This document shows, piece by piece, positions 9,779-63,189 of a DNA stretch of 64,000 bases. The notes below the pieces were generated by a model. The model made no database searches and had not been told where the DNA came from. It saw only the letters and a program-made list of their open reading frames with translations. Made by a program: the position numbers and the translations under genes. Source of the stretch: Notamacropus eugenii (taxonomy: Eukaryota; Chordata; Mammalia; Diprotodontia; Macropodidae); NCBI RefSeq assembly GCF_028372415.1, contig NC_092877.1, positions 386,929,342 to 386,993,341 on the forward strand. The letters are read 5' to 3'. Within the stretch, counting starts at the first letter, position 1; every line of letters starts with the position of its first letter.

Positions 9779-9916
9779 TCAGAAGCCCATGGGGCGCGAA
9801 TATACAACTCCTCCATTCCTTACAACTTCATTAGAAATAGTCTTCATGTTCTGGTAGTAGCGGTTCCAACTCGAGGCTTTCACCGCCTTGAGATTCCATC
9901 GAACTCGTTCAGAGGC
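9779..9916 (-). CDS. ACADVL-like: ACADVL-like coding exon 19 and stop
   Basis: Residues 585-629 and TGA at 9781-9779. [20 protein letters not shown] then VYSRPMGF matches the human C-terminus [20 protein letters not shown] then VTSNPLGF. Acceptor TCCTTTAG. Confidence 0.92.
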   Translation of the reverse strand, partial: ASERVRWNLKAVKASSWNRYYQNMKTISNEVVRNGGVVYSRPMGF

Positions 9917-12900
9917 CTAAAGGAGAGAAAGAGACCCCCATCCCCTCTCAGGTCAGTGCTAAACTGCTTAGGTAGCCTCTTAATTAACACTGACAGGGTA
10001 TAGGGCTTGGAAACCCGCCTGCCCCAGACCCAGCTTCCCCCATGGATTTGAGGTTTGCCTGAGGCTCATCTCAGTATAATCCTTTCAACTCTCCTAGCAA
10101 GGTGGCTTTGACCCTGACCCAATCTCCAATTCTGTTTCCTCTAACCCAGCCCAGCCCTCTTCTGTACCTGGTCCTAACCTGAACTAACACTCTTTACTTC
10201 CTTCAAGAACCCTTCCATGAGGCCCAGGTGTTCACTGGGTCACCCAGCCTTTCCAAGTCCTTCTCTGTTGCCTCCCAGTCACCCCAGACTACTTGGCCAT
10301 TCCTAGATCCTTCCCACAGTCTTTCTTATATAAGGTCCATCCAGCCCCCCATTAAAATGCTCAGATTCCTTAAGAGTATGGCCAATATGGTGGATTTTTA
10401 CAATCATGTCCATACTGACTAGTAGTCTAAAAAACCTTCTCATTGGTTGCAAGGCAGCTTGGGCCACATTCATTTGAGGCACGACCTATAAGTTGCTGTT
10501 TAGGGATCCCAGCAACCCCAAACCTCAACAACGTTAGCCACCATTTCAATAAGCAAGTATGTTCACACATGTGCGCACACTTGCAGAGACATGCATGCCA
10601 AACACCCACTTCTTGGGAAGGGAACCAGCTCAGAATTTAAGTCTCCCCATGTCAGGGGGTTCTAGTCATTTGGTTCAAAGAAGGTTTATAAAAAGTTACC
10701 CAACCTGTCCCCAGTCAGTCTTTCCAGCCTCACTGGACATGAATCCCCCTCCTAGGATTCAGCTAAGCTGGCCTTCTCTCTGCTCCACACAGAACATACC
10801 ACATCTGCCCCCTCTGGCCCCGGGGTGTGGCCCTCACCTCCACCTAGTAGAATAGCTGTGTCAAATAGAAACAGATCCCTACAGGCCATGTATTGACTTA
10901 GAAAACCAAAAATTTACATCTTCTATGTTGTTTTGTATTTTCATTTATTTTGCTAAACTTTTCCCAAATACTCTGTGATTAGACTGTACTCAGGAGAGGG
11001 ATGTCACCTCTGTTATGTAGTTTTCCTCTTTAAGATGCTCTGACACCATGTTGCTCTTCCTCCTCCCCCTTCTCTCTTCCTTACACAGGTCTTTGTATTT
11101 CATTATTTTAGAGCCCATTATATTCATCTATACTTTTATATGTAACTGTGTCTCCTGTCATTGACTGTGAGCCTTCTGAGGGCAGGGACTGTCTCCTTAT
11201 TGTATCTCTAGCACTTAGCACAGTTTCTGGCACACAGGAGGAGCTTCCGAAGTGCTCACGAATGGATATCTTAGAAAGGAACTGCATCTGAGCCGCATCC
11301 CTGTTCTCTGGAATCTTGGGAGCCTGGGTCATTTTGTAGAAGATCCCAAAGCTCAGACCCCACTTTATGAAGAGAGAGACAAGAGGACAGTGGGTGGGGT
11401 TGGGGCAAAGGAAGCCTGTCCTACCTTATAGCACCAGGACTCACAGAGCAGCTTCTCGTGGATCGCTGAAGGGAGGTTGTGGTTCAGTGAATACGTTGCC
11501 CTGGAAGGAAAAGAGACCCAGACCCAGTGTGGATGCAGAGATTCCACGTAGCTCAGCGCTCTCAAGTTCTGGCCTTTCATTGACTGACCCAGATCTCAGC
11601 CCCTGGTGATTCTATGCTCGGCTTAGCCCTCCTGGTGGGGAGCTCCTTTCACTTGGCCAGACAATGGGTCTCCTGACCTCGGCTTCCCTCCCACAGCCTG
11701 AGACAGCACAGTGTCTCTTGTAAACCATCATGACACATTAAAGTTAGCATCAGCAGAGTGTGATGGATATTGGCTTCTCCAACCTGAGGGTGTGTGGGGA
11801 TTGGTTGAAAGGAGCAGGGAAGTCAAGTGTTTCAGCAGAGGCTGTGCTCATCTCTCATTCTCATGGAGAAGATGGAGAGGGGTAGGGGGAGAGTGGAACA
11901 ATGAGATGGTCCTATGATACTGGAAGCATGGAGATTCCTTGAATACTTTCACTAAGGATCTGTCTTTATTTACTGACTGTCCTGTGTTAACAGAGGTCAT
12001 AGGCCAGTTGCTTCTGAAAGCCCAGATTCGTCTCCCATAACTGCCTCTATCTCCTGAAGGTCAAGCTGGTTCAGCATAAAAGACTCAACACTGGAAGGGG
12101 GTCCCAGTCCCAGCAGCTCCAGAGAGACATGAAAAGGGAGCTTCCATCTGCACAATGGGCTGGTCACCCCCCGCCACGGGGCAATGCAGGCTCAGAGCAC
12201 TGAAGTGTTTTCTATGACCACATCAGAAACGCGATCAGACATAAACGAGACAAGCGCCGCTCAGTCCTTGCCATGAAGCGAGATTTGAAAGTTCTCTGAT
12301 GAATATGATGAATCAAAAAGGCACCCAAGTGTTTTCTGTGTACAGGGAGACAGCCCCAGCCCCAGGGAGCTCATGTTAATATGAGGGAGTGGTGACCAGG
12401 GAACGTAATTTTGTCCTGGGACAGTGAATTCAGTCTTTGACTGACCCTTCCAAAAGCAATTGATTTGATAATTCTCAGAGCAAGAGGGAGATAGTAAGAG
12501 TGTCTGGTGTATATACGGAGGCAGTTCCCTTCCTCCTCCCCATAATCCATCTCTCTGGGCATTCCTTCCTTCTAGGTCTGGGTAGTTCCTATCTACACCC
12601 TCCCAAAAATCTTGTATAGATGATCCAAGCAAGGGGGCTCAGACCTGCCTTGAGGTTAGATTGGTTCAATTAGTCCCCAGAGTGAAACTTGTCCCCTGCA
12701 TCATTAGTTAGTCCTCTTGTGCTGGTCACAGTCGCTCAGTAGGTGAATTCCAAATCCCACCAGGTGAAGTATTGTACATGGTCAGATCTTCAGCAGCAGG
12801 AAGTTAAAATTGTTGGCAGCTGCTTCTGACCCATATGACACTAGTGACCTAGAGCCACAGTTCACACAAAGGGGCTAAATCAGCTTTGAATGCCTGCCAG

Positions 12901-15900: not shown

Positions 15901-18900
15901 CCCACAACCTCCCCTCCATCAGTACCTGGAAAGCACGACCCCCATGGAGTAGATGTCCATGGCAGTATCAGCCACTCTCTTCAGGTGAAACTGCTGATCT
16001 GAAATGGGAGCAGAGAAGGGGCGCCTGGCTGCCTCACCGAGAGAAGCAGGCATCGGTGCCCTTGCTTCCTCCTTCCTCTCTCTCCCTCCCTCTTTCCCTC
16101 CTCTTCCTTTTTCTCCCCCTCTCCCATTTTCTCCCTTCTTTTTCCTCCCCTTCCCTGTTCTCTTTTCCCTCCTCCCCACCTCTGCAGTCTGAAAGCCTGG
16201 GAAGGGCACACCATTGGAACTCTGGGAGCCAGAGAAGTTTATAGCTTTGGAGAGGCAGAGAAGGGGCAGTAAATGTTTTATGAAGAGCAAGAAACGAATA
16301 GTTTCCCCTTTTTGTTCCAAAAAGCCATCTTTCTGAAGTTTCAGGACCGGTCAGAGCCCGAGCTGTGCCCAGAAAAAGGGCAGAGGCAAACCAAAGGGAG
16401 GGGACTTACGGATCACTTCTGTGCCAAATTTTAAAAGCAGGTGTTCTACAGCCTCTGAAAGCAGGTCCACGCATTTTGTCACCTTTAAGGAGGAAGGGAA
16501 GGAAGTCAGGTCACCAGGACAGGCTTTGTAGAAGGATGCCTTTCTTATGGTAACCAGAAGGCCCCACCTGGGAAAGAGCAGCATTGACATTTATCATGGC
16601 TCATGTACCATCCTCTTTAGCTCTCCCAGTGTTAGCCCTCCTGGGGCACTGTCTTCCTAAGTTCTCCTGGGACACTGAACATGTCAGCCTACTGGGGGCA
16701 CCAGCCACATTGGTCCAGCTAAAGGCCTTGACCACCTTACTCACAACTTTTACTCAATGAAGTTTCCAGGTCCCCTATCACTGTCCAGTGATGAGAACCT
16801 GTAGATCCCTGATGACCAAGGGGAAGACTCTATACCAGCCTACCCTCCTCCAAAGTGGGATTGGCCTCCCAGCTGGGTGATGGCAGTGCCTTCCCGCCAA
16901 GCCAGAGGTCAAGTCTTTATGGCTCATTAGCCCAATTCTGTCCTCATGCTCCATGTATCGCAGAGACCCTGGAGCTTGCTTTGCATGCCCAGAGCAAAGA
17001 GGAATTACTCCTTAATTAAGGAGATGAATCCTAAATATGATAAGATGCATATTAAAGCAAGGATGGGATAAGAAAAAGAATCCAGAGAGTATGGTAGAAA
17101 GTAGTAAAAACCTAGAAATGGGTTCAGGGGGCATGATAGCCATGCCCATGATGTGAAATGGATGGAGGAAGCACAGAGTGGGGCTTGAGTGTGACCCCCA
17201 TGACTCTGCACAAGTGAGTGCCCATTCCAAGCTGGACCTGGCATTCTCCCTCACTGAGGCAGCATGCTGGGGCTTACAAAGTACATGCAAGTAGCCTCAC
17301 CCTCTCTTCCTCAAGGCTCCCATGCCAAGCCTACAGGGTGGCTTCCAAAACATGGACATGGATGTTAAGGAGAATTCAGGATTGGAGAAGAGCCCCACCA
17401 GGAGAGGACTGTATTCTAGAAGGGGAGGGCTCTTGATCCCTCCCCTGATCCAAGTCACTAGGGAAGTGTCTGGCATTTGGAAAGCTCAGAGGGAGCTCAG
17501 GAGATAACTTCATATTCAGGGGTCAGGAAGGGATGAGGCAAGGGAGGTAGCCAGCTCCAGTCAGCAGCATGAGCATGCCAGGCTTCCCAATCTGTCTGGG
17601 AAGATCTTGATCTCATTCAAAAGCTGCCCCATGACTAAAGAAGGTCTTACCAGGCTGGCAGTGTCCAGCAGGTGCCCATTGACCACTCCATCGAGGGAAA
17701 TGCCCGTTGGTATCCCTATTATGCTGGAAGAAGAAATAAAGGATTAGATCAGCTCTGGCAGGCTCATGTCACAGGTCATCTAGATAAATTCCATTTGGAT
17801 AAATCAAGGCAGGCTCTGAAAGTTCTCAGGATCCAGCTCAGATCTTGGGGTCTCCTACAGCACAGCAGCCCCCTAAAGTCTCACCTCAGGCCTCACTCTG
17901 GAGGGTCTGAGGTTTGAACCAGCCTGAATCAGCACAGGGAATAGAAAGGGTGAGCTTGACCTGCTTTAGCCAGGAGCCACAAGTTGTAGCTGAAATAGAT
18001 CTCCTCCTGGGGTGCCCTTGAGAAGGAGGCAGAACTGTGAGGAGAGTGAGACTCAGAGGAGGAGGGCATGGAGCCCAGAAGGTGGGATGAATCCATGCTG
18101 GAGGCACCTTGGCACCACAAAGAGAGAGTCTCAAAGTTCTGCCGATGGAAGGCAAGGATGGAGAAGGGAATCCTCCCCTCCTCTTGAACCTCATCACTGA
18201 GTAGGAGGAAGATGTGCTCCCCAAAGCTCCTCCATTAGTGCAGGTGCCAGAAACAGCACGCTGGTCCTTAAAGGGCCTGAATGGAGCCTGTCCAAGTCTG
18301 GACCATTTTACCCCAACATTAAGCTGCTTCTTGAAGCAGAACATGGAAAGCCAGCATTCGATTAGGAAACACTTTTTTTAGTGGAAGTTTAGCTAAAAAT
18401 GTCCAGGGGGCTGCATTTCTCCAAATCTTAGAAATTGTTCCTTCTTTTATTACTAGCTATAGGTTAATTAGTAATTCAAGCCATCAAGAGTTCGTTTTTT
18501 ATGGGGAAAGCTTATCCAATCTCTCCCAGAATTGTGTGTTGATTCCTGTTGTCAGTTCTCCCAAGGCAGAGGGTACCCATGTCTCCGATGGATGTCTTCC
18601 ACCTACAAGCTCTGCAAGGACAGAGACTGTGCCTTACTCTGTCTTGATCTCCACCACCCAGGGATGCATTGAAAATAGTGAGGGCTTAAGCAATGTTTTA
18701 TGAATCGAATTAAATCTTTCCTTCCATGGTATGCCGTGTGAGGGCAAGCCCTTACATTGCATTTCTTTTGCCTTCCTCCAGGATGGCACCTGGTACAGTG
18801 CCTGCTAACTGGGTGGGGTGATACGTGAACAGATAGCAGCCACCCATGAGGACCAGTTGTCTTTAAAGGGTTTAGACTACATTTCCTGTCCTGTAGTAGC

Positions 18901-21348
18901 CCCAGGGCCCAAGCTTCCTTGAGCAAAGAGAAGCCTTTTCTCTCATTTCTGCCCTAGCTCCTGCAGGGTCTGAGGTGTGTGCTGTGGCCTCTGACCCCGG
19001 AAAGGCAGAGGGGAGCATCCACCCACCCCACACCAACACTGCCATACCCGGCTTCCAGGTGGGTGGGAACAGCAGTAAACCAGTGCCAGCCCCACCAGTC
19101 GGCCCCACCATCCTCCTGCTGCCAGCCCCACCAAACGGCCCTACCGTTTTGCTCTGAGGCCAAGTTCAGTGAAAAGGACTGCAGTATTGTTCAGTGGGTC
19201 TTCCAAGGTGTGTTGAAGCTCCTGTAACTGGGCCCCTGCATGCTAATGGATGTGATGAAAACAGAAACAGAAATAAAGCTCTGTGAATGCAGGCCTCCAG
19301 CTCTATTCCTCTGGCTGGTCCCCTGTGACACAGTAGGAGCAGCGCACGAGTGCTCATTGATAGATGCAGATTCACATGGACCCTCTAGGAAGGGCTGGGG
19401 CACCTTAGCCCAGGGCCTGGTCCCTACTAGGGGCCTAATCCATGCAAGTTGAGTCAAAGCGCTTGAATGATGATAATTCCTTGTGCTTCTAGGTTAAAGA
19501 CCAGAGAGAGATAGAACTCTAAGCAGTCATGTCTATGCCCAGGGTGTGTGGCAAGGCCACAGGCCCTTGCCTCAGTTACAGGGCTCAGAAGCCTGGGGTT
19601 CCCAGAAGGTGAGAGAAAGCTGCACCCTAGTACTTGGAGTATGGTAGGGGTGTGGAAAGCTGTGGTATTGGGCCACCTCTGCTCTGACACATCCAGGCTG
19701 GTGACTCTGGCTCTGTCACTGGCCTCATAGCACCAGCAGACTCGCTAAGAAGCAGCTCCAGAATTGGTGCTGGTCTGCATGGCAGGGGAGGAGACTGTTC
19801 ACCCCAGGAGCTTTGCACACTGATGAAATGACAGGGAGAGTATGAATTACCTGCAGACCTGCCAAAGCTACAAATATCCGCAGGATGTCATTGGTACCCT
19901 CAATAATGCGGAAGATGCGAAGATCCCTCATGATCCTCTCTACTCCAGCTTGCTGAGGGAAGAAAGGGGCATTATGGAGGGAGGAACCTTTTGGAGACCC
20001 CTGTGCAGAAGCCCCCACTGGGGATCACCTGAACCAGGGGGAAGGAGGGACCCCATTTCCCTTCTCCTGGGTCTGGACCTTGTCCTCATTCTGCCACAGC
20101 ATGGGCCGTCCCCACCTCCCAAGTAACCCAGGCTCCAAGGGTCAGTGGAGAGAAGGGAATTGTCTCTTTAATCAAGTGTTGTATGATATAAGAAGCTGTC
20201 ATCTGTGGACCCCTAGCTCCCTCCGTTCTCCAGGGAGTTATCCCCCATTTCATGATTTCTCTGTGCTCTAATGATGCAGCAGCAGCAGAATCACTGGGGA
20301 AGATGGCGGGCTGGGATTTGGGGCACCAGCCTTCAGGCAGGGTCTCACCAAGGACAGCAGGCATCGGAGACCTGGGCCTCCTCAGCCCTGCTGCTCTGAG
20401 GCTCTGGTCACTCTCCATTCTCATCAGGGGGCTTGGCTGGGATAATGCTTCCCGATTTCTCCTGGGGCCCAGCTTTGTTCTGGAAAGCTAATAGCTCATC
20501 TCCCTGCTCCTTGCTTGAGGCTCGGTTACCCAATTCCCTTCTCAGGGATTCTTGACCTTGTTTCCTATGGGGCCTTCTCAGCTTCCCACAGACCCTGATT
20601 CCCCCGTAGACCTTGGCCAGGGGTCTTGGGCCTGACTCCTGACCACTCCCCTGTTGGAAGTGAGAGTAACCTCCCTGGGTTGTCCATCCCCATAGCTCCC
20701 AGCCAGGGCAGACTCTTTCCATCCTGCTCCCTCTGCCTGTAGGAAATTCTGGGCCTGGAGAGAGGCCTGATTTATTATACACTAGGGATGCCAGAGTTGT
20801 TGGGGGACTTCAGGGAGCCTCAAGCTTGATTCATGAGCAGGACATCCCTCCATAGCTGCCTAGTCAGTAACACCCCTGCCCCCCACAAGCAGCCCAGTCT
20901 GCTTTTCTAGGCTATCATGGGAAGGAAGGCTTTTCTTCCATGAGTCTAAACTGGCTTCTTTGCAGTTGCTCTCTCCTGGGTCTGCCAAAGTTGCCCTCTC
21001 CTGGGTCTGCCCTCAGGGCCAAGCAGGACAAAACCTTGGCTACATGAAGCTTATTCTACTCCAGGCTGGCTATGCCCAGCACCCTGGAGGTCTGCAGCCT
21101 CCCAGCCCAGTCATCTAACCCCTCAGTCCTCAGTGCTACCCTCTGAGGAAGCATCGAGGTGGTCCCCAAGATGTCACCACCTCACGCACATGCATGTGAC
21201 TTGCACACACTAGTGAGTATACACATCCTGAGAGAACTGTGTGTCTGACCATGTTGTCTTGTGAGGATTGGTGAGCAAAGATGGACAGTGGATTGAGGTA
21301 TGGCTCTATGGCCATGCACACCTGGGAACGCATGTGCATGTGCACGTG

Positions 21349-21400
<52 letters not shown>

Positions 21401-24400: not shown

Positions 24401-27400
24401 GTGAGCCTAGAGTGACTGATGCCTAGGGCTTGGAGAGAGACTTTGTGGTCCAGGGAGTATTATCATCCCCCTTTTATGGAGGGGATCAGGAGGACCTGAT
24501 CTGGGTTCACCCAGCTGCTAAGTGGCTCTAGCAGAACCAGGTCTCCTGGCTTTTGGCACAGGGCACCTTCTACTAAGAAAAGAATGATCCCAAGGAGTAC
24601 TCAGTAGGATTGCACCCTGAGCATCCTCCTTCTCTAAAGTGCCAGTGTGGCGTTGCTCCTTCTTAGCACCTTGTACAACATAGCTGTTGTTGTCATTTTC
24701 AGTTGTATTGGACTCTTCATGAGATCATTTGGGGTTTTCTTGGCAAAGATGCTGGAGTGGTTGGCCATTTCCTGCTCTGGTTCATTTTACAGATGAGGAA
24801 ACTGAAGTAAACAGGATGAAGTGACCGGCCCAGGGTCACCTGGCTGTGAAGTGTCTGAGGCTGGATTTGGACTCATGAAGACGAGTCTTTCTGATCCCAA
24901 GTCCAGCACCCTATCCACTGCAGTGCCACCTAGCTGTCATTGTAGGTTCAATTATTTCTTGACTGAATGAAGGACTGTCCACAGTCTTTTGAACTTTTTT
25001 CAGTCTCTCAGAATGTCCATCACCTCTAAGGAAACAGGCCTGGGAGCCAGGAAATCTGGCCTCTGCTCCCAGTGCTGCTGCCAACAGGTCAGGTCACCTT
25101 GACAATTGTCTTTCCTTCTCTGGGCATCAGGCTCTTCTTGTGTCAAAGAGGGATGATAGCTGGCCTCCCTCCCTCCTGCTTAGGTTGTAAGGTTTAGACC
25201 AGATAGTGCGGTGTCTGAGAAAGTCCACCAGAAAGTCCAATTCGGAACCACTGTAGGCTCTAAGTAATTCCCCCCCCCCCCACTCCCACCCTCTTCATGT
25301 ACTCCCCTTCCCTGTCCATGGTCCTGCCTAGCTCCAGGTCAGCCCTGAGCATCCTTGTTTACTTGGTCTAATGGGGAAGTCCCATTCCTTCCACCAGGCA
25401 CCCATATAAAGTAGGATGGGCAAAGATCACCACCACCACTCTGCAAAAGAGGAAGCCAGGCTTGGGGAACAGTGACTTCCTCAGTAGTGACAGCCAGGAG
25501 GATTAGCACCTGAAGGTTGCTGGTCCTGGCTACAGAGCCCAGGGTATGGTGAGCACAAGATGGTCATAGGGTGTGACTGGGATCAGAGGCTACCCCTCAC
25601 CTTCAAGGATGGAACACCATGTTGGCTTGAGAAGGGGTAAAGTAGAAGCTATGAAGAATGAATGGAAGGACAGGGCAAAGAGTACCTTCCACCTGCATGC
25701 CTTCAAACTCAGAGCAACAGAGACTTGTCCAGCAATAGAGTGGGCCACTGGCCCCTGAGGGGCTGCCCAGCTCTGAGGATCTAGGACTTAGAGCAGGAAG
25801 GGATCATAGAAGTCATCAAGTCCAATCCCTTTGTTTTACAGAAGAGAAACTGAGGCCCATGGGGGGTGAAGGGACATGTTACAAGGTAGTAAGCTGTAGT
25901 GACAGAGTTTGAGCCCCCTAACCCCAGTAACTCACAGAATCACAATGTTCAAGCTGGCAGGGATCTTGGGGGCCCTAGTCCAATGCATAATGGAAAAAGA
26001 ACCCATCTCCAAAATACCTGACAAGAGGTTGGCCAACCTTCCCTGGAAGACTTCCAGGGATGGGGAGCTCACCACTTCTTCAGCCTCCCATTGCATTCTG
26101 GGACAGTTCTCATGGAGAGGACACTCCCCTTCACATCCCCCTAAATCCAGCTCTTTGCTGCTTTCCAATGTGGCGCCTGGTCATCAGAGGCCAAGCAGGC
26201 AAAGTCTACTCCCTTTTCTGTGCATTAGCTCTTGAGAGATGTGGGAACAGCTATCATGTCCCTGAATCTTCTTCAGGCTATGCCCCCCCTTCAGTCAGGG
26301 GATCCTTCAATGACTCTTAGGTCTCTCCCTTTCCTTCACCTAAGCTTGAATCATCCCATCTGCCGTTTTAAGACTTTAGGTCCAGAACTGTCAAATGAAC
26401 AGGCGTGGTAAGCATTGCCCTCAACTCCAAATGACTCAGGGCTCTAACTTCAGGCCCATTTCGAGTGGCCTGAGGGAAGGACTCAGAGGATGGAGGTGCA
26501 CTTCCAACTCTGTCTTGGAGCCTCTGTTTCCTCCTCTCTGAACTAAGAGGGCTGAGCTCTCCAATCTCTGAGGCTCCTTCCAGATCTGACCCCCATGGCC
26601 CACAAGTCTCACTACATGTCCCTGTTCCCCTGCCAGAAGTGTCCTTGCACTCCCTCCCAGGAGGGCCTGACCTCTGAGTCCCCAGCTCACCGCTTTCTTG
26701 ATCACTCTGCGTATGGTGCCCACCAAGGCGGAGACAGTCCCAAAGCGACCATTGTTGAGAACGTTCATGGCCACCTTGAAGCCATTCCCAAAGCCCCCCA
26801 GTAAGTTCTCAACGGGTACTTTCACATCTTTGAAGGAGACTGAGGTGGTGTTGGAGGCCCTGATGCCCATCTTTTTCTCTGGCAGACCACTGAGAAAACA
26901 CAAGCACCCATTTTTCCCAAGTGAACACCCTCCTTCCCCTCTTCTTCCCTCCTACAAACCTGTCAAGCCCAGTAACTATTTCCCCACAAGACCTCTGAAT
27001 CGTTCATCCCTAATTCATCCTAATGATCCGCTCCGATCATTGAGCCTACAAGGCACAAAGTGGGAGATTGGTATTTTGTCAAACTAACTGAATGAGTATA
27101 GACAGCCCATAATTCCAAGCCTGGAGGGTCGAGTTCTTCCAATGATGAAGTGACCCAGTTTCACAGTCTACATCCATCCAATGGCTTCTCTAATTTTCCA
27201 AGTCCATTCCATTGAATGGGCCAGACTAGACCTGCACAACTTGGCAGTAGGGAGAGACCAAAACTAAAACAGGCTAAACTTCTTTGGGCTGCAGATAGGT
27301 TTTTAGTGGCTCACTTTCTAAATAATGGTACAGTTAACAATTATACCATTTTGCAAATAAAGATTATTTTTAAAAGGAGAAATTTCAATTAATATCAATT

Positions 27401-30400
27401 AATTATACTTATTACTTTAGATTTTTATTTATCATGAAATTACATTAATGTTTAAAAAAACATGACTTTGCTAAGAGGTACAATTTTTAAAACATTTTTC
27501 AGGTTTTGTTACCGTTTACATTTTAGTAACAACTGAAAACACAGTGAAGACTCGATTCTCCCTCCTCTCAGACTAGGGACAGACGGATGGTTGGGTGCCA
27601 TGAGTCACTTGACAAACAGGAGAGTGTGTGCAGGGACACCCCATCTGCCACTTTATATGATGGACCCTGGAGTGGGGGACTGAGCTGGGTCTGAACAGGC
27701 CTCAGGTTGGTGCCTTCTTTGTCTGGCCCGGTTTCACCCGCCTTCCACTACTCATGATTAGGCCTGTCTAGTCACATCTTAACCTTCTTTTTATGCTCTA
27801 CACTTTTCAAGGGTTACCTGCAGTACTTTGGCAGCCTGTGGGCTGTATGTTGTGCAGGCCTGGATTAGGCATGGGGCCTTGATGCCAAGGGCTGCCAGCT
27901 CAGGACAGCCTTAGATTTAAGTGACACCACTTTTTTCCAGTAGCCAACAAGGGCCTTGGAGTCAGGCCTCACCCTACGTTGTCCCTTTGATTCTAGAAGG
28001 AGCAGTTGTTCAGCTGCCCCCAGAGCGTGCTCAACATTTCTGATCTACAGTATGTGTTAGGCTGTCCCCCTGGGGTTTGATTTGGAGGGGCCTCTGTGGG
28101 AAGCAGGTGCTACTGTCAACACTGAGGTCATACTGCAATTTCAGGGAGGAGAAAGGGTTTTTCTATCTATACAAAGGACTGAAGACCTTCATCTTTTCAA
28201 CCTTCACAGAAAAGAGAAAAGTAGGTCATTACTCCATGGACCTCCTCTCTGTCCCCCAAATAGAACTGCCCCATTCTGACGTACACATCTCTAAAACGCA
28301 TCAGAGCAGCCTAGGCGGGAGGTCACCAATGGACAGCTTTGAGGATGGGCCTACCTGGTCACACCCTCAAAGGCTTTCTCCACGATGAAGGCCGAGATCT
28401 TTCCATGGACTTCTCCTGTGGCCACATCCTTCACTTGGGTCTTGGCAAATACCGTAAATACATCTGCAACCCCGCCATTGCTTGGATATGAGAATATTAT
28501 TGCAGTCAGCCTTTCCTCTTCATCCTTTTCCTCTTCCCTCCTCCTCCTTTCCCCTGTGCACCATTCTTAGGTTGCTAGCTAAAGCACCCAGAGTGCTGTC
28601 TTTCCCACACTTTAAACCCATTGATGTCTTGGCTTTCTCAGCCATTCAAAGACCCACATGGATACTTCTCACCATGCTCTTTGCGGCTGCTTCTTGCCCC
28701 ACCTGGATCTGCCAACGTGCACATGGGAAAGGCTGGTCTCAGGATAAAGGAGCCAGGGACCAGGCTGGCAATAAAAATGGGCCAAGGCAGCTCCCAGAAG
28801 ATGATTTAGTGATTCCATGAGTACAGAAAAGGTACCTTTCACAGATGTTGTGGGTTCCGATGGAGAGTCATAGATGACAGAGGTCAGAGCTGGTGGGGCA
28901 GCTCTGGGAGGAGGGTGCAGATTGGGAGGGCCCTGGGGGGAGCTGGCTCTAAGCAGGCCTCCAGGACTGGTGCCTTCGGTGCCAGGGGCCCTTCCCTCAT
29001 GCTCTGAGGCTAATCACTTCACTTGCACTGCCTGAAATCCCTCCTTGTAGGCCAGCTTTAAAAATGCAAATACTTCTAGGAGGCATCACTGGGCCTTTGT
29101 CCCATCTATCCCTTCTAAAATCATCTGTACCATAAGGGAGGCTGTGTTGATTACGGGGTCCAAAAGAGGAAGGGGAGACAAGCAATTCTGGAGGATGGAA
29201 ATGATGATGAGAAAGGCATTGTGACACTGTAGAGGGTTTAAGGTGACAGGAGGTCACTGGGGGTCTAAGGGTTCCCAAGAGTAGGGAGGGGATAAGCATT
29301 TATTAAGTGCTTACTATATACCAGGCCCTGCACTAAGCACATTATAGATATTGTCCTGTTTGATTATCAAAATTCTTCAAAGCTAAGGGCTATTGTCCTC
29401 ATTTTACAGATGAGTAAACTGAGGCAACCAGAGGTGAAGGGATTTGCCCAGGACATGTAGCTAGTAGGTATCTGAGGCCAAATTCAAACTCAGGTCTTTC
29501 TGACTCCAGGCCCAGCTCTCTATCCACTGTGCTAGAAGTACAGAAAAGAACAGGAAGGAGGATCCCAGAGAGGTCAGACTTTCCCTCTGTGACTGTGGCT
29601 GTGTGTGTTTGGGTAAATCCCTTCCTGCTCTGGGCTTCAGTTTCCTCCCCTGGAGACTGAAGACTGTGGATTCAAAACCTCCTCTAGAGCCTTGGCCTAG
29701 TGACGTCCATCCCCTCTCGGCCAGCTCTGGGAGCCTGGAATTTTCGGCTGGCCAGGCCCCAGTAACATCCCAGACAGCCCTCACAGGCCCCGATCCCCTT
29801 GAAAGGGCCTCACCTGATCCACATTTTTTGGCCATTCAGGATGTAGAATTTCCCACACTGGCTGACCTCAGCGGTGGTCTGGATAGAGGCTGCATCGGAG
29901 CCACTCATTGGCTCCGTCAGGCAGAAAGCGGCCAGGGATTTCCCTTTCAACACAGAATCAAAGGGATTGGTGTTCACCCCGTGGAAGTACAGAGCATCCC
30001 CTTCCAGGGACAGGCCTTGGTGGTGGGGCAGGTGCCGCCATTGGTCCAAGGGTGCATCCTCTGTGCCCCCCAATGCCCTTGTCTTCTGGTCCTTTAGGAG
30101 ATGTTTTGTGTCTTTGCAGCCAGAGGCCCTCAAATGTTAGGGGACCCTTGTTTTTTGGCCATCAATTATGAAGAATCCCCGGACACTGGAGACTCTGGAA
30201 CCAGCCTAGCCATACTCAGCAAGAGGTGCTTTGCCCATCTCATGGGTCCACAGGCCTTGATGCCTAGCCTCCCCAGCTGTTTAAGGCCCAACAGGGAGTG
30301 TCCATCCTTTTCCTGTGGTTAAATGTAAACTAGGGAGTCTTTCATAAGGGAATAAAGGAGCTGGCTGGGGGCAAGAGTTAGCCTGAGGCTGGGAGCAGAT

Positions 30401-33400
30401 CAGGGCTGAGCAGCCCCTGGGCCAGAGGCTGTCCTGGAGTTTCCCTGCTTTCTTCATGGTCACCTTTGTTCTAGCATCCATTCTCCTTGGACATGAGTAA
30501 AATCGGGGCTGCCTTCCTGAAGGGGTGCCTTCTTTCACCCAGCTGTCCCCCCCCACCTCACAGGCTTCTCCTTCATGCATTCTCTCAACCAGATTTTTCT
30601 GAGCCCTTACTGGGTGCAAAGAACCCCGGGAAGGGCCGTGGGGGATCTGTGTGGCCCCCACCCTCAGTGAGCACTCTAGCAGGGGATATAGGACTGGGGA
30701 CATTCAAAGTTAAAGGAGGCAGAAGGCACTTTCGGGCTGGGAGGCCGGCTTTCCTGTGACTGGGAGGAGGGTGTATGGGACTGGACTGTGCAGGAAGGAA
30801 GGGATGGGTGTCGCAGGTGGAGAGGCTAATCCAGAGGAAGGGAATAGTAGGGAGGGAGTCAAGTGTGTCTGGAAGATGTGGAATTCATTGGCAAGTAATA
30901 GAAGCAAGAGCTGGAAAGGCTGTCTGGGGCCAGACTGTGGAGGAAAGGCCTCGAATGCCAGGCTGAGGCCCTCTGAGCCCTGACAGGGCTATATGCAGGA
31001 AGGGTAGGCTCCTCACCAGAGGCCAGGTCTGGCAGGTATTTCTTTTTCTGATGCTCGTCTCCAAACAGCAGGATGCCCTTAAAGCCACTGGACTGATGTG
31101 CTCCAAGAACGACACCCACAGCCAGGTCGTGCCAGCCCAGGATTTCCACCATGCGAGCATACTGCCAAACAGGGATGGTGCCAGAACCGTCAGGGGGAAG
31201 GGACAGAGGGGGAAAGAGGGGGCTCCCACCGGGCTGGAGGAGGGGACAGCTTCAGCCTGGCTTGGGTGGGTGGGGGTCTCAGCCCCTTCATCTAGAAGCA
31301 AGATGCCCCCAAGCTTGCTCTGGCTCAAAATCTGGGACCCTCAGGGCTCAGAGTACACAGGAGCCTGGGCCTGAGCTTGGGGACCACATTGTTGGACCGC
31401 ATGTCCCCCCTCAAGCTTGGAGGCTGTGCCTCTCTCGTCTTACCCTGCCCCCCCTCCACCTCCCTCCTCACCTGGGTGTTTGTCAGCCCTGTGCCACCTA
31501 GTTTTTTTGGCACTTGTAACCCGTACATTCTCAGCTCCTTGAGCCCTGTTAGGGTTTTTGACGGGACTTCTTCATTGCTGTCATTCCAAGTCGGGTCATT
31601 AACTTCCTTCAAAGATAAAATTTTAAATAGTCATTGAAAATGAGACATCCTGTAACTCTGTGGCCTGTGAAGAGATTCCCTTACCTTCTAAACCTCATCT
31701 GTGAAATGGGGTGAATATGACTGCCCCAGAGCTGGGAGTCCCGCAGTCACAGGGACAATCTCCCTCGGACCTTGCCTTCCCCCTTGCCTTGCTCCCCACC
31801 CACAACCAGGCTAGCTCAGGCTGCCCAGGATTCAGAGAATGCTGATGCCTGACCCAAGGCTGAACCAACTTTTATCCAAGGCTTTGTTTTGTTGTGTCTC
31901 CTGGGCATGGTTAGGAGTACATTAGGCCTCAGTTTCCTCGTCTGTACTATCAGTTTCTTATATTATTTGCCCTTCATGAGTCCATGAGGCTCTGCCCCAG
32001 GCCTTCTCTCCCCTGGCCCTCCATCTTCCATCTGTCCCACCAGATGGGGTGTCCCCATTTCCCCTGACTAAGCAGAGCAGTGGCTTTTCGGACAGTAGCT
32101 GCTGAGGTCCATGACTCATTCAGCATCTCTGCAGAAGCCAAGCCCTCCTAATTTCTCTCCTTTGGGACCAAAGAGCTGGGAGTGCCATGCAGCACCCACC
32201 TCAAAGAAACGATTGCAGGGCTCGTACACCATCTTCAGGAATGAGGTCTGTTCCTCACTGAGAACTAGGGGAGAACAGAGAGGCCATGAGGCCCTTCCGC
32301 AGCCTTTAAGGTCCTGCCACTTGGGCCATTTGACTCAGGGGGTACCGCTCCACTTCTTACCTGATGGAAAGGGGAACATGTTGTTCACAACAACTTTTCC
32401 CTTGAAAATGTTCGCCACGAAAGAAGTTGATTCCTGAGTGGTGGGAGATGATGTGGGGGAGAGGAGGACAGAAAAACGGGGGAAAGAGTAGATGTTTTAA
32501 AGTTTACTGGGAGAGGCCCAGAGAGTCCAGAAGCCTCCTGGCAGATGGGAGGAGTGAAGAAACCATCCATCTCCACCAGGTCTGAAATCTAATCCCCTAG
32601 ACTGGGCCCTCCTCCATCTCTATCACAGCCTGCAGACAAAGCCAAAACCAGCAAAATTTTCACCAGTTAAGGCAGCCCTAGACTGAGATCTCTTCACCCC
32701 CTTCCTTGTAGCTGGGCCTCCAGTGGGACAATGGGGGCCAGACTAACTTGTTCTGAGATGGGGCCCAGACTTCTGCAAGCACCTGGGGGCTCTCTTGGTT
32801 CTGCTTTCAATGACTGCTGGGTTCTACCACCCACAGACCCCAGGGCTGATGGGGCTCCCACCCAGGAGACTTCCAAGCCAAGCCTCATGGTGCTGCAAGC
32901 CAGGTGCTTGTGTCATCTCCTTCCAGTGTTCAATTGGAATGGCATGACTCAGGGCTCCTCAGCTCATGGAGCTGCCTCTGACCCCCACTGGCATGGGCCC
33001 TGGACAAGTCACCACCACTCAGGGTCCCTCCCAGAGCCATTGTGGCTCTACATTGGTGAGTGGAGTTTGTACACTGGGAGTTCAATTTAAATGGATGAAA
33101 CCTCAGCCAATGAGTTTAGACCAAGAAGAAAAAAAGACCCAAATCAACATCTGGAAATGGGATTTTTGCAACAGACTCACTGGTCTCATAGTAAAGGGCT
33201 GAGGGGAACAGGTAACTCACCTTCACTTTGGAAAAATAGGTCTTCTTGTGTGTCATGAAATGAGAAGGAGAAATTAGTCTGCTGGAGAAAAGCATGAAAT
33301 TCAACTAAGACTAGAGGGCAAACAGGCCCTCCCAAAGTGCAGTCACGGTTTGGTCATGGCCCCCTGTAATATCCTTTCCACAGCAACCATCCAGGCACCC

Positions 33401-35400
33401 ACAACCCCACATGTCCACAGCTAGACATGTCTTTCAACTCCAATTTGGCAAGACATCAGTCCATCTTCAACAAATGGAGAGCTAATTACTGCTTGAATAC
33501 CAGCACTGCAGAGGAGCTCACTACCTCCCCTGGCAGCCTATTCCTGTTACTAAAGGCCTAGAAGATTTGGGACTCAAAAACACCTTGGATCATCTGACCC
33601 AGGAGTTCATATTTTGGGGTCCATAGATCATCAATGAGTCTACGATCAGTTTTTGGTAGGGAGGGTGTCCATGAATTTGTATGGGAAATGATATTGGTCC
33701 CCTGGCAGATAAAAGTCTAGCTAATCCTCTCACTTTTCGGAGAATCCTAAATGCCCAATGATAGGAACAGACTGACTCACTGAGGAGGAAGCAGCAATGC
33801 CAGGGCTGACTGTGGGTATTAGGACTCTTTACATCACACCATCTCCTCTGGGCAGTGAGCTAACGCCAGCGATAGGATTGGCACACCATGAGGAGTTAGG
33901 GGGCCAAAGGCTCAATCCTGCCTAAGAAGCACCTACACTTCCTTCCCCATTGCCTCCCTCCCTTGGCAAGCACCTGAGCCTGAGGAGGTTAACTCTGGGA
34001 ATTGTGGAGACTGAATGACACTGATTGGAACTCGGTTCTGGAGCTGTTCAGTTATGGGTTTGGTCCAATGCCTGTCCTGTGAGAGACTTCATTCAACTGG
34101 GGGAAATGAAAACCAACTTGATTGCCTCATTGGAGCCTAGCGCTGCGCGGCTGCCCGCTGCCCAGAGACCCTAGACCTGGGGTCTGCTGACCAGAAAACA
34201 AGGCAGATCCAAAGACTGATGGGAGGGATTTTCCCTCAATTATAGGTCTCAAGCAACCCTATGGCTTATCTGAAATATCCTGATCAATTATTGTTTTCAT
34301 GTTCCTTGCAATGAATAGAGGGATGGGGGGACAGAACTCCTCTTTTTCTGATCCCAGGGAATTGTACGTGTTCATCCTTCTAGTCCAATCTATCAAAAGG
34401 TTACAGCTGAGGAAACTGAGGTCCAGAGAGGGTTTGCCCAGGGTTGCAAGGTTCGAACACAAGTCTCCTGAATCCTGGCAATGTGCCCTCTGCAAGCAGG
34501 CCACCTTCCTTGGCCTCAGTTTCTTTCTCTGTAAAGAGGGCTAATCCAACCGGCCCTCACTCTCTCACAGGAGCCCTAGGGGACAACTTACGATATTATG
34601 GAAATGTGGTATATTATCAATTTACTTTTAAAACCAAAGTTTCAAAAAGCACCATGATCAGAATCAGATTCTCAGGATCTCTGAGCTAGAAGGGGCTGAT
34701 CCAACCCAAACCTGGAGAAGAAACTCACCCGCCCCCATGCCTGCCCCCTTGGGAGTGGCCATTCAGCCTTGGCATAAAGGCCTGGCTTTGTGTCCAGTTT
34801 TCAGGACAGTTATCACATTCCCCTGGAACTTGTCTTCTCTAGACTCATGATATCCATTTCCTTTGCCTGGAGCTCTCAGGGCCCTCCTCATGCTGACTGC
34901 CCTTCTCTGGACACTCACCAGGGTGCCCAGGTCTGACCACCAGAGCCCAGATATGGCCATGCATTCCCTAGTAGGCTTATGTCAGAGACACATTTTTAGG
35001 GGAACTGTCTGAGATGGATGGCTCCTGTTTTTCTCTCCTGGCAGTCGGGTGGCAGAAGTCTAGGACCAGAATCCCTGAGACTGAAGGATAATCACAGCTC
35101 CTCTAGACCTGGGAGGGACTCAAAACCACGGAGACCACGGCCCTTATTTTACAGAGGTCACTGAGACCCAAAGAGAAAGAGTCTCCCAGGTGGCAAGAGG
35201 CAGTGGGCAGAGAATGAGCCCAGATCCACTGGCTCTAGAGTCAGGGACTTTTGCCCACCACTGTCCAGTCTGGCCACTCTGCCCCTCCCCCCTGCTGCCC
35301 ACAGGAAGCGCTTCTACCTGAGCTTCGGTTTCCTGGGCTCTGCTAGGAGACGCCGCCACAGATCCAAAGCGGCCCGATTCCCAAGTGCAAGCAACCTCAT
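9779..35400 (-). CDS. ACADVL-like: Mitochondrial very-long-chain acyl-CoA dehydrogenase-like protein (19 coding exons)
   Basis: Flavoprotein of the VLCAD family, expected to catalyse the first, FAD-dependent step of beta-oxidation of long acyl-CoAs at the mitochondrial inner membrane. Nineteen exons (total 1890 nt with stop) join in phase to 629 residues; human VLCAD has 655. Order: basic N-terminus (1-30, [20 protein letters not shown]); helical N-terminal domain (about 60-190); FAD/substrate motif [15 protein letters not shown] and [13 protein letters not shown] (about 193-245); KASN-like [11 protein letters not shown] (about 275-285); C-terminal dehydrogenase helices with the catalytic Glu at about 442 in [11 protein letters not shown]; then the VLCAD/ACAD9-only C-terminal domain (about 459-629) ending [11 protein letters not shown] (human ends SNPLGF). 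All introns are GT-AG. By eye it is about 60% identical to human VLCAD over the best exons and clearly less to ACAD9, so I infer a paralogue and not the orthologue. An upstream non-coding exon is missing. Confidence 0.92.
9917..11424. other. Intron 18 of the ACADVL-like gene
   Basis: No exon seen. About 10960-11260 is an L2 3' end on the plus strand (word GAGGGCAGGGACTGTCTCC near 11178). The rest, including a short TG/CA-rich patch at about 10560-10600, shows no clear family. Confidence 0.5.
11425..11500 (-). CDS. ACADVL-like: ACADVL-like coding exon 18
   Basis: Residues 559-584. [15 protein letters not shown] matches human TAQHEKMLCDTWCIE. Follows a 4.4 kb intron, the longest in the coding part. 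Donor GTAGGA. Confidence 0.9.
11501..13289. other. Intron 17, left part, no repeat recognised
   Basis: The open frames here are short and lack family motifs or codon-like structure. I see no RNA gene or mobile element. Confidence 0.4.
13290..14460 (-). mobile_element. Degraded CR1/L3-type LINE
   Basis: On the plus strand the text runs in the antisense order of CR1/L3 LINEs: GCTCACTACCTCAGGAGGAG (13410), TCTTCTCTTGTCCAGGCTAA (13599), TGTGGCACTCCACTGGAGAC (14349). The segment at about 13880-14250 is unclear and may hold another insertion. Coding capacity is gone. Confidence 0.5.
14700..15085 (+). mobile_element. L2-type LINE fragment
   Basis: Text such as AGATCTGACCAGGTCATTCC and CCTCCCAAACCCCTCTCTCC follows the 3' half of L2. 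The terminal GAGGGCAGGGACTG-type tail is missing, so it is partial. Confidence 0.45.
15086..15925. other. GC-rich patch in intron 17 and TG-rich tract
   Basis: A CpG-containing patch at about 15240-15380 (with GGCGCCGGCGCC at 15252-15263) supports long open frames on both strands, but none has a known motif. About 15735-15835 is an imperfect TG/CATG simple repeat. Confidence 0.4.
15926..15998 (-). CDS. ACADVL-like: ACADVL-like coding exon 17
   Basis: Residues 535-558. [20 protein letters not shown] matches human [20 protein letters not shown]. Donor GTACTG. Confidence 0.9.
16065..16175. repeat. Pyrimidine-rich (CT)n tract
   Basis: About 110 bases almost wholly C and T on the plus strand, just 5' of exon 17 in transcript sense. 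On the minus strand it is a GA-rich intronic tract. Confidence 0.75.
16410..16482 (-). CDS. ACADVL-like: ACADVL-like coding exon 16
   Basis: Residues 511-534, [20 protein letters not shown] then TEVI: a helix of the C-terminal domain. Matches the spacing of human [20 protein letters not shown]. Donor GTAAGT. Confidence 0.87.
17651..17723 (-). CDS. ACADVL-like: ACADVL-like coding exon 15
   Basis: Residues 486-510, [20 protein letters not shown] then TASL. Human VLCAD has the looser [20 protein letters not shown] here. Acceptor TTCTTCCAG, donor GTAAGA. Confidence 0.85.
17724..19144. other. Intron 14 of the ACADVL-like gene
   Basis: About 18600-18720 and 18725-18835 are two L2 3' tails in a row on the plus strand. 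At 19085-19145 a block with CCAGCCCCACCA is repeated and touches the donor of exon 14. The rest is unassigned. Confidence 0.45.
19145..19227 (-). CDS. ACADVL-like: ACADVL-like coding exon 14
   Basis: Residues 459-485, [20 protein letters not shown] then ELGLRAK. Aligns to the human KELSGLGSALKNPFGNAG region and opens the C-terminal domain. Acceptor GGGCCCAG has a weak pyrimidine tract, but phase 0 is forced by the neighbours. Confidence 0.78.
19851..19952 (-). CDS. ACADVL-like: ACADVL-like coding exon 13 (catalytic Glu)
   Basis: Residues 425-458. [20 protein letters not shown] carries the catalytic base Glu at about residue 442 (Glu462 in the human precursor), so the active site is intact. 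Donor GTAATT. Confidence 0.94.
19953..21335. other. Intron 12, no gene seen
   Basis: A short direct duplication (CTCTCCTGGGTCTGCC) lies at about 20970-21012. I recognise no exon and no mobile element here. Confidence 0.4.
21344..21398. repeat. (TG)n microsatellite
   Basis: About 25 nearly perfect TG units on the plus strand, within intron 12 about 70 nt from the donor of exon 12 (minus strand). Confidence 0.9.
21466..21528 (-). CDS. ACADVL-like: ACADVL-like coding exon 12
   Basis: Residues 404-424, [20 protein letters not shown] then K: the ACAD Q-I-x-GG-x-G(Y/F) motif that binds the flavin at the subunit interface. Human splits the same text [20 protein letters not shown]. Confidence 0.93.
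21880..22015 (+). mobile_element. MIR3-like SINE
   Basis: Runs from TCATCTAGTCCAACTTTTTC to GCATTTGAACCCAGGTCCTG, the MIR3-like order. Old and diverged. Confidence 0.6.
22424..22510 (-). CDS. ACADVL-like: ACADVL-like coding exon 11
   Basis: Residues 375-403, [20 protein letters not shown] then AAISKIFAS. Human has [20 protein letters not shown] then AAISKIFGS. Confidence 0.92.
22884..23060 (-). mobile_element. L1/HAL1 3' UTR remnant
   Basis: The plus-strand words TTTATTTTCAGTTCCAAATT and CTATGAAGGCAAGAAAAACC resemble the antisense 3' end seen at 60230-60570. The element reads on the minus strand, and no coding part is left. Confidence 0.5.
23110..23285. repeat. Purine-rich (GA)n / (GAAGAG)n tract
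   Basis: Nearly all A and G on the plus strand, with GAAGAAGG and GGAGGAGGAG steps. On the transcribed strand of the ACADVL-like gene it is a long pyrimidine tract. Confidence 0.85.
23400..24015 (+). mobile_element. L2 LINE fragment
   Basis: L2-type text (GCCTCATTGCCCCATCTCAA near 23748) and a 3' tail (CAGCACCAAGCACAGAGCCT at 23818, ending in short repeats near 24000). It ends about 100 nt from exon 10. Confidence 0.5.
24118..24222 (-). CDS. ACADVL-like: ACADVL-like coding exon 10
   Basis: Residues 340-374. [20 protein letters not shown] matches human [20 protein letters not shown], the FAD-contacting RxxFG helix of ACADs. Donor GTAAGC. Confidence 0.93.
24681..24937 (+). mobile_element. tRNA-type SINE of the marsupial kind
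   Basis: The order GGACTCTTCATGAGATCATT, GGGTTTTCTTGGCAAAGATG, TTTTACAGATGAGGAAACTG, CTATCCACTGCAGTGCCACC is a SINE family I know from marsupial genomes (MIR3/WALLSI-like; exact name not certain). It is nearly complete. Confidence 0.7.
25015..25920. repeat. MIR fragments in intron 9
   Basis: About 25015-25200 is a MIR with CTCTGGGCATCAGGCTCTTC. About 25785-25920 is MIR3-like with TTTTACAGAAGAGAAACTGA. A run of C occurs near 25270-25280. The part between is unassigned. Confidence 0.5.
25925..26375 (-). mobile_element. CR1/L3-type LINE fragment
   Basis: Plus-strand text GGGGAGCTCACCACTTCTTC (26059) and GCTATCATGTCCCTGAATCT (26250) is the antisense of a CR1/L3 LINE, as in the 13.3 kb copy. Confidence 0.5.
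26691..26889 (-). CDS. ACADVL-like: ACADVL-like coding exon 9
   Basis: Residues 273-339. [40 protein letters not shown] and LNNGRFG run from the beta domain into the C-terminal helices. Longest internal exon (199 nt), as in human ACADVL. Confidence 0.94.
27227..27862. mobile_element. hAT-Charlie-like non-autonomous DNA transposon
   Basis: The ends are inverted: the left end reads TAGACCTGCACAAC and the right end, reverse-complemented, CAGGCCTGCACAACATACAG, close to the Charlie8-type terminus. The inner 0.6 kb is A/T-rich and has no transposase frame. The 8-bp flanks (GGCCAGAC and GATTAGGC) do not match, so the insertion is old or the ends are misjudged. Confidence 0.5.
28355..28480 (-). CDS. 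ACADVL-like: ACADVL-like coding exon 8
   Basis: Residues 231-272. [20 protein letters not shown] then [15 protein letters not shown], the middle beta domain; human [20 protein letters not shown]. Donor GTAGGC. Confidence 0.93.
28481..29290. other. Intron 7, unassigned sequence
   Basis: No exon or clear repeat found. Short CT-rich patch at about 28505-28560. Confidence 0.35.
29292..29536 (+). mobile_element. tRNA-type SINE
   Basis: Begins TAAGCATTTATTAAGTGCTT and ends CTATCCACTGTGCTAG. Inside are TTTTACAGATGAGTAAACTG and TTGCCCAGGACATGTAGCTA. Same family as the copies at 41603 and 52535. Confidence 0.7.
29814..29943 (-). CDS. ACADVL-like: ACADVL-like coding exon 7
   Basis: Residues 188-230. 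Holds [20 protein letters not shown], the flavin and substrate loop signature (PROSITE-type ACAD motif 1), and [11 protein letters not shown] across the next junction. Confidence 0.94.
29944..31016. other. Intron 6 of the ACADVL-like gene
   Basis: A repeat with TGAGCCCTTACTGGGTGCAA (about 30560-30980) resembles the ancient unnamed repeat near 63.3 kb. The remainder shows nothing recognisable. Confidence 0.35.
31017..31161 (-). CDS. ACADVL-like: ACADVL-like coding exon 6
   Basis: Residues 140-187. [20 protein letters not shown] and [14 protein letters not shown] match human VLCAD closely; ACAD9 has AAHQAIGLKGIILAG here. This exon best separates VLCAD from ACAD9. Confidence 0.94.
31472..31606 (-). 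CDS. ACADVL-like: ACADVL-like coding exon 5
   Basis: Residues 95-139, 45 whole codons. [20 protein letters not shown] matches human [20 protein letters not shown]. Begins EVND as in human. Donor GTGAGG. Confidence 0.93.
32200..32264 (-). CDS. ACADVL-like: ACADVL-like coding exon 4
   Basis: Residues 73-94, [20 protein letters not shown] then FE; human [20 protein letters not shown]. First helix of the N-terminal domain. Donor GTGGGT. Confidence 0.88.
32361..32433 (-). CDS. ACADVL-like: ACADVL-like coding exon 3
   Basis: Residues 49-72, including [20 protein letters not shown]. Human VLCAD has [20 protein letters not shown] at the start of its mature chain. Donor GTAAGA. Confidence 0.88.
32434..33220. 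other. Intron 2 of the ACADVL-like gene
   Basis: No exon, RNA gene or known repeat seen between coding exons 2 and 3. Confidence 0.35.
33221..33281 (-). CDS. ACADVL-like: ACADVL-like coding exon 2
   Basis: Residues 28-48 ([21 protein letters not shown]), a linker between presequence and mature protein that aligns loosely with the basic RKKPAKAESKSF region of human VLCAD. Acceptor CTCCAG, donor GTGAGT. Confidence 0.8.
33430..33565 (-). mobile_element. CR1/L3-type LINE scrap
   Basis: Plus-strand word GAGCTCACTACCTCCCCTGG matches the CR1/L3 antisense layout. Short and diverged. Confidence 0.4.
34370..35300. repeat. MIR and CR1/L3 fragments in intron 1
   Basis: About 34370-34545 is MIR3-like (GAGGAAACTGAGGTCCAGAG). 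About 34790-34965 is CR1/L3-like antisense (CCCTTCTCTGGACACTCACC). About 35095-35260 is MIR3-like (TTATTTTACAGAGGTCACTG) and ends near the start-codon exon. Confidence 0.5.
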
Positions 35401-59505: not shown

Positions 59506-59523
59506 GTAAGCATGGCCTCTTCC

Positions 59524-59690
59524 CAGTAAGCAGGTACCCAGTCAGCGGGCACCTGGTCAGTGGCCACTTAATCAGTGGGCACTTGATCAGTGGGTACCCT
59601 ATCAGTGCATATCTGATCAGCAGGCACCTGGTCAGCAGGCACCCTATCAGCGGGCACTCGATCAGTGGGTACCCAATCAGTGGGCACCAC
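59524..59690 (+). repeat. 15-bp minisatellite after BDH1 exon 59353
   Basis: About eleven diverged copies of a 15-bp unit of the form TCAGTGGGCACCTGA begin 18 nt past the donor. The unit is five codons long and free of stops in the BDH1 frame. Confidence 0.85.
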
Positions 59691-60207
59691 AGAGGTGTGT
59701 CTCCCTGGCCCCCTCGCACTCAGACCCAGGAGAGTTGAGATTGCCACCCAAAAACCAGCAGCCTCACCTCAGAAGAGGAAGTGAGCTGCTCAGGGAAGAA
59801 GTAGGTGAGGGCATTTGAAACCAAGCCCTGTGATTGCACAACTGGGATCTTTGCATTGTAAACAGCTCCTCTATAGAAGAGGAGATGGACAGTGCCTGGG
59901 GGGCAGGGTCATTGAGAAGTTAGGAGAATGCCAAGATGACTCACTTGGTATCTGCCCCAGGGACCTCAGAGACCACCAGATATAGAGAGACAATCCACCA
60001 ACATGCTGCTGACCTCAGAGCCCAGGTCTGACTGGCCCCCCTGCTCCCCACTGCCTCTAGGAACCAATTCTGTCTAGTCAGGCTCCTCCCTGTCCTTCCA
60101 GACTGACCCCTCATGGCTGCCTTCATGCATCATCCTAGGCATTCTCTCAGCTGGTAGTACTCACTGTTGGTTCCAGGGGTCCCCAAAGTCTGGATGGGGC
60201 TGTAACT
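59691..60207. other. BDH1 intron, nothing firm
   Basis: MIR-like and L2-like scraps may be present (for instance CCTCTAGGAACCAATTCTGT), but I could not place them. No exon. Confidence 0.3.
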
Positions 60208-62798: not shown

Positions 62799-62879
62799 CT
62801 CCAGTCTATCGGGAATCTCTTCTTAACTGGCAAGAATCCTGGGCCTTCTGATCATGCCAGCCTACAGGGATAGTGTGTT

Positions 62880-63165: not shown

Positions 63166-63189
63166 TATTCAATCTTCTCTCTCAGCTCC

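Follow-up and report, generated by a model that had tools for sequence, protein, structure and literature searches.

A VLCAD-type gene beside BDH1 in Notamacropus eugenii, probably a 2R ohnologue of ACADVL with altered predicted membrane association

Human VLCAD, the product of ACADVL, which oxidises long fatty acids, and ACAD9 are usually taken as the whole of their branch of acyl-CoA dehydrogenases. In human, ACADVL lies at 17p13.1, head to head with DLG4 and near DVL2 and ACAP1; sox15 is also located at 17p13.1, and DLG1, BDH1, PPP1R2 and ACAP2 are located at 3q29. Sox15, flanked by Fxr2 and Mpdu1, is documented as an ohnologue from the early-vertebrate (2R) genome duplications (PMC8244163). 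On the protein side, PMC9237092 describes residues 440-473 of mature human VLCAD as a modelled hydrophobic hairpin ringed by K440, K442, K452, K467 and R470-R472. According to the same source, acylation of K442, K452 and K467 abolishes the binding of VLCAD to the membrane until removal by SIRT3 or SIRT5, and the crystal structures of human VLCAD use a form without exon 3 (PMC9237092).

We analysed a stretch of 64,000 nucleotides of N. eugenii DNA (the window), in which a gene on the minus strand, running from 35400 to 9779, joins 19 exons into an uninterrupted VLCAD-type protein (Table 1). Spliced alignment of human VLCAD, as a query whose residues 69-655 agree with PDB entry 3b96, to the minus strand of 9000-37000 returned a score of 1767.5. 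First-order Markov resamples of the same region gave 258.5-303.0 in 8 out of 8 cases, ruling out a chance chain of exons. Exons 3-19 were recovered directly by this alignment together with five N-terminal pieces, four of them spurious and one corresponding to exon 2 of a 629-residue model.

This model had been proposed in a preliminary description of the DNA, and joining its exons reproduced the 19 exons and 629 residues with matched phases, GT-AG boundaries in all 18 introns, no internal stop and a terminal stop. The intact reading therefore stands, but the 46-base exon 2 was probably mis-chosen, its donor (AAT/gtgtct) scoring 1.0 on a simple scale and being the weakest of the gene, compared with 3.5 for exon 1 and 3.5-8.0 for exons 3-18. 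Candidates for this position were single exons, 20-200 bases long and lying between exons 1 and 3, with an open frame, a compatible phase, an acceptor score of at least 0.5 and a donor score of at least 0. The top-ranked one, of 61 bases and with a stronger donor (AAG/gtgagt, 8.5), replaces the 46-base exon and leads to a protein of 634 residues. Basic residues number 12 and acidic ones 2 in the N-terminus of the 634-residue model, as against 11 and 5 for the 629-residue model; its hydrophobic moment is 0.65 versus 0.66 for human VLCAD, and it looks like a mitochondrial presequence, cleaner than that of the 629-residue model. Exons 1 and 2 are the least certain part of the gene model, and the start codon is a candidate. 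A counterpart of the N-terminal exon 3 of ACADVL was not found in the window gene, which need not be a defect since the crystallised form of human VLCAD lacks exon 3.

The catalytic Glu, aligned to human E462, had been placed at about residue 442; this is its position in the 634-residue model, but in the earlier 629-residue model it is residue 437. The two models differ only at the N-terminus, and the 629-residue one underlies the Pfam, tree, invariant-residue, dN, dating and hairpin results given below. Within 1500 bases downstream of exon 19 we found one ATTAAA (at about 9424) and no AATAAA.

Table 1. Exons of the VLCAD-type gene and the neighbouring BDH1, in positions of the window.
Feature	Position	Strand	Remarks
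Exon 1	35318..35400	-	83 nt; putative start codon at 35400; basic, amphipathic presequence; donor CAG/gtagaa
Exon 2, revised	33221..33281	-	61 nt; codes for 21 residues together with the end of exon 1
Exon 2 of the 629-residue model	34992..35037	-	46 nt; probably not the true exon 2
Exon 3	32361..32433	-	73 nt; same length as exon 4 of the species' own ACADVL
Exon 4	32200..32264	-	65 nt
Exon 5	31472..31606	-	135 nt
Exon 6	31017..31161	-	145 nt
Exon 7	29814..29943	-	130 nt
Exon 8	28355..28480	-	126 nt
Exon 9	26691..26889	-	199 nt
Exon 10	24118..24222	-	105 nt
Exon 11	22424..22510	-	87 nt
Exon 12	21466..21528	-	63 nt
Exon 13	19851..19952	-	102 nt; carries the catalytic Glu (residue 442, 634-residue model)
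Exon 14	19145..19242	-	98 nt; contributes to the equivalent of the membrane hairpin
Exon 15	17651..17723	-	73 nt
Exon 16	16410..16482	-	73 nt
Exon 17	15926..15998	-	73 nt
Exon 18	11425..11500	-	76 nt
Exon 19	9779..9916	-	138 nt including the stop
BDH1, N-terminal exons	52069..64000	+	alignment runs past the window to about C23:386994176

The protein carries the three acyl-CoA dehydrogenase domains PF02771 (73.8 bits), PF02770 (82.2) and PF00441 (138.6), all above the Pfam cut-offs, followed by the C-terminal domain PF21343 (ACAD9-ACADV_C) with 149.5 bits against a cut-off of 27.8 over residues 504-621 of the 629-residue model. The Glu-Gly-Thr-Asn motif with the catalytic base Glu is also present. 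The identity amounts to 55-57% with the species' own, human and mouse VLCAD and to 43-44% with ACAD9; the values for the human proteins, 57% and 44% respectively, are close to the earlier estimate of about 60% for VLCAD with ACAD9 further away. Family-invariant positions were evaluated on 18 of the 22 other rows, leaving out L057, L059, L061 and L040, and the window gene keeps 69 of the 72 columns invariant in these 18 members. In the same test losses were 1 of 70 for the species' own ACADVL, none of 69 for human VLCAD, 2 of 71 for human ACAD9 and 3 of 72 for the species' own ACAD9.

The three VLCADs (own, human and mouse) share with the window protein the Pfam architecture, the Glu-Gly-Thr-Asn motif and the C-terminal domain, their genes having likewise DLG and ACAP-family neighbours, and the internal exon lengths of the window gene are identical to those of the species' own ACADVL on contig C2 in all 16 cases compared. 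The window gene differs from them in its separate locus and in the Ile preceding the catalytic Glu, which replaces a Phe common to the five rows of VLCAD and ACAD9. ACAD9, a complex I assembly factor, both the human protein and that encoded on C4, has the C-terminal domain family in common with the window protein, and 16 residues, LQHA among them, are common to both ACAD9s and the window gene against all three VLCADs. However, the window gene and the VLCADs agree against ACAD9 at 60 sites, exon lengths in ACAD9 are different, and ACAD9 falls outside the group of VLCAD and the window gene in the tree. ACAD9 and VLCAD agree at 40 sites changed in the window gene, compared with 16 for the reverse, an excess that speaks against the reading proposed below.

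Phylogenetic analysis was carried out on 23 rows, consisting of 17 out of 80 bacterial relatives, including L057 with a long branch and L040 with a run-on frame and odd composition, and 6 animal sequences. The VLCAD/ACAD9 group, including the window gene, was separated from the bacterial relatives with support of 99/97. Within it the window gene was sister to human, mouse and the species' own ACADVL (100/100), ACAD9 coming next, and the three ACADVLs excluded it with 100/99; a six-sequence analysis also placed it outside therian ACADVL in 98 out of 100 bootstraps. Since the gene is sister to all three ACADVLs, it appears to be a paralogue predating the marsupial-placental split. The marsupial-placental split is dated at 160 My, and setting it at this value a rough clock based on the length of the ACADVL stem returned 655 My for the duplication (5-95% 411-868), a wide interval obtained from 6 rows and 533 columns, 98 of the 100 bootstrap trees entering the ratio.

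On C2 the order is ACAP1 (minus strand, 78.669-78.686 Mb), DVL2 (plus, near 78.839 Mb), ACADVL (minus, 78.844-78.851 Mb) and DLG4 (plus, 78.863-78.876 Mb). On C23, which contains the window, ACAP2 (minus, 386.764-386.789 Mb), PPP1R2 (minus, 386.906-386.916 Mb), the window gene (minus, 386.939-386.965 Mb), BDH1 (plus, 386.981-386.994 Mb) and DLG1 (plus, ending near 387.275 Mb) follow one another. The names of DLG1 (95% in the best-matching exon), BDH1, PPP1R2 and ACAP1 were assigned by similarity to human query sequences, and DLG4, DVL2 and ACAP2 are family members named by the place expected from human. Of DLG1 only the end with the kinase domain was located; a query for its N-terminal part matched nothing within the 50 kb of C23 that follow the window on its right. 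BDH1 is indeed the neighbour, as first described; it begins at a distance of 16.7 kb from the window gene, forming a divergent pair with it, and its alignment leaves the window and extends as far as residue 341 of human BDH1, the tiny N-terminal pieces being surely spurious. A short tandem repeat, with 1.9 copies of a 75-base unit, occupies positions 59542-59682, just after a BDH1 exon.

ACAP (minus), ACADVL (minus) and DLG (plus) therefore follow one another with unchanged order and strand on both C2 and C23, the window gene being the C23 copy, and three families so arranged on two chromosomes indicate a block duplication, for which the 2R genome duplications of early vertebrates offer the best explanation. 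These would have left one copy beside DLG1 and ACAP2, the canonical ACADVL staying beside DLG4 and ACAP1. The 2R date would rest on this synteny and not on a tree with fish, and the rough clock is in line with it. The block is imperfectly kept, as the matching genes on C23 are separated by PPP1R2 and BDH1, and a Dishevelled search listed no further duplicated neighbour of this family on that contig. An ACAP gene and a Dishevelled gene occur together on C15 (34.63-34.78 Mb), and no VLCAD match was among those listed beside them. Elsewhere on C15 (158956316-158957434, minus strand) we noted an intronless ACAP relative with a stop-free frame of 850 residues, 69-73% identical to a stretch of human ACAP1, which is possibly an intact retrogene.

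On these grounds we consider it likely that the window gene is a protein-coding 2R ohnologue of ACADVL, encoding a mitochondrial FAD-dependent acyl-CoA dehydrogenase with altered membrane association. A paralogue of ACADVL was already the reading of the preliminary description, and it is supported by the position in the tree and by the second ACADVL in the genome; a paralogue simply kept in this lineage should instead be read as very probably a 2R ohnologue from the duplicated ACAP-ACADVL-DLG block. The interruption by PPP1R2 and BDH1 would also fit a younger origin, in which ACADVL was duplicated singly or as a segment in early tetrapods or mammals, the copy landing beside BDH1 and then evolving fast. 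The window gene is in fact somewhat faster, its branch being 1.56 times the VLCAD path (5-95% 1.10-2.53) and its own changes numbering 52-64 versus 35-43 in VLCAD, with relative-rate chi-square values of 2.2-5.0, above 3.84 in two out of four comparisons. However, we regard a later origin as unlikely, because it needs a chance landing exactly between ACAP2 and DLG1, whose paralogues flank ACADVL itself, with order and strands that agree, and because the VLCAD stem is long (0.21-0.25) and the bootstraps place the gene outside therian ACADVL.

The 2R ohnologue reading brings the gene close to sox15 (PMC8244163) and crh2 (PMC9353778), both described as copies from early-vertebrate duplication unevenly retained among mammals, although sox15 is a transcription factor and crh2 a hormone gene, whereas the window gene encodes a metabolic enzyme. 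Among the matches listed from open-access titles and abstract openings, no ACADVL ohnologue or paralogue beside BDH1 or DLG1 was described. To our knowledge, humans have no copy of the window gene. Automatic annotation may well name the gene 'VLCAD-like', and its points of interest are the ohnologue reading and the change in the hairpin.

A second alternative, an ohnologue recently dead or dying, with readable exons and no expression, seems even less probable. It would agree with the low scores at some splice sites, with the change of 3 of the 72 family-invariant residues, a loss equal to that of the species' own ACAD9, and with the lack of a CpG island around exon 1, where the observed/expected ratio of CpG is 0.23 over 500 bases starting at 35001; the 5' region sampled for BDH1, however, has no higher ratio and is not a CpG island either. 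Against it, the frame of 634 codons, the 18 introns and the stop have all survived some 0.45-0.55 changes per residue along the branch of the window gene. As about 3.8% of single-base changes in the coding sequence would create a stop, prolonged neutrality is unlikely and any neutral period would be recent, although a loss within the last few million years would be conceivable. Compared with the species' own ACADVL, third codon positions differ at 63% and dN is 0.38; dS is saturated and yields no dN/dS ratio. A DNA search of the genome with the 1758 bases of exons 3-19, in which the best candidates were scored, matched only the gene's own 17 exons and one ACADVL stretch, and thus returned no second copy and no retrocopy hinting at germline transcription. 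An intronless copy near C2:423135000, considered as a copy of the window gene, turned out to be an old ACAD9 retropseudogene, a decayed sequence with several stops at C2:423134936-423136580 (in L039).

It is hardly credible that the window gene is the marsupial ACADVL or ACAD9 itself, merely diverged, in spite of the same domains and of a hairpin start as in ACAD9, since both orthologues, provided that their loci are correctly assembled, are found elsewhere in the genome and the tree separates the three genes. The separate ACADVL that the preliminary description had suggested looking for is on C2, with a Dishevelled and a DLG gene as neighbours; it is compact, with 20 exons in the alignment, and 83% identical to human, and the window gene lies at another locus and outside the mammalian ACADVL clade. 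ACAD9 on C4 is 75% identical to human over the modelled part, the model stopping at human residue 572 of 621 and having an unsure start.

As for function, the acyl-CoA dehydrogenase core is kept in the window protein, with both its catalytic Glu and the Arg that aligns with human R366. The most evident change concerns the hairpin, whose seven ring positions are all kept in ACADVL of the species itself, of human and of mouse; in the window gene they read A, A, E, L, K, R and I, with positive charge at two of the seven, K480, K482, K492 and K507 (precursor numbering) being replaced by A, A, E and L. The net charge of the hairpin is -1 in the window gene, whereas VLCAD has +5 to +6 and ACAD9 has +3 to +4, and the cationic ring of VLCAD-type membrane binding is thus largely missing from the window protein. 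As the cationic rim, including the SIRT3/SIRT5 target lysines, is mostly gone, membrane association would be altered. At the start of the hairpin ACAD9 and the window gene have LQHA and VLCAD has CMDK, and for this reason K440 looks like an innovation of VLCAD.

Judging from the sequence, the product is most likely a mitochondrial FAD-dependent acyl-CoA dehydrogenase with the extra C-terminal domain of VLCAD. It would work on long acyl-CoAs as a dimeric enzyme whose base is the conserved Glu, and would probably associate with the inner membrane in a manner unlike VLCAD, more loosely or by hydrophobic contacts. We infer from the hairpin a VLCAD-type enzyme relying less on charge for membrane binding and outside the same lysine control; mitochondrial targeting, dimer formation, substrate, membrane behaviour and expression are all predicted features.

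More speculatively, and with less than even confidence, the gene might represent a third member of the VLCAD/ACAD9 clade, 'ACADVL2', present since 2R in marsupials, perhaps in other non-placentals, and lost before or within placentals at a rearranged 3q29-type locus. It would be a long-chain enzyme with weakened anchoring and without the sirtuin-regulated lysines of VLCAD, long-chain beta-oxidation being split between two enzymes. An ancient third member in a mammal provides a comparison for distinguishing ancestral parts from those of VLCAD's own, such as the hairpin lysine K440. It also raises the questions of what placental mammals lost and whether the loss of a second enzyme increased their dependence on ACADVL, the gene of VLCAD deficiency.

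Finally, some observations were made on the mitochondrial contig C121 (82,343 bp), which contains two COX1 copies 38.3 kb apart. Its tRNA cluster beside tRNA-Tyr (L121, 1-701) is interrupted, by eye, by a TTAGGG-like repeat array, and the layout may stem from an enlarged mitochondrial genome, from a copy in the nucleus or from an artefact of the assembly. Directly after tRNA-Ser, the tRNA-Asp slot holds a tRNA with the anticodon GCC, a hallmark of marsupials.
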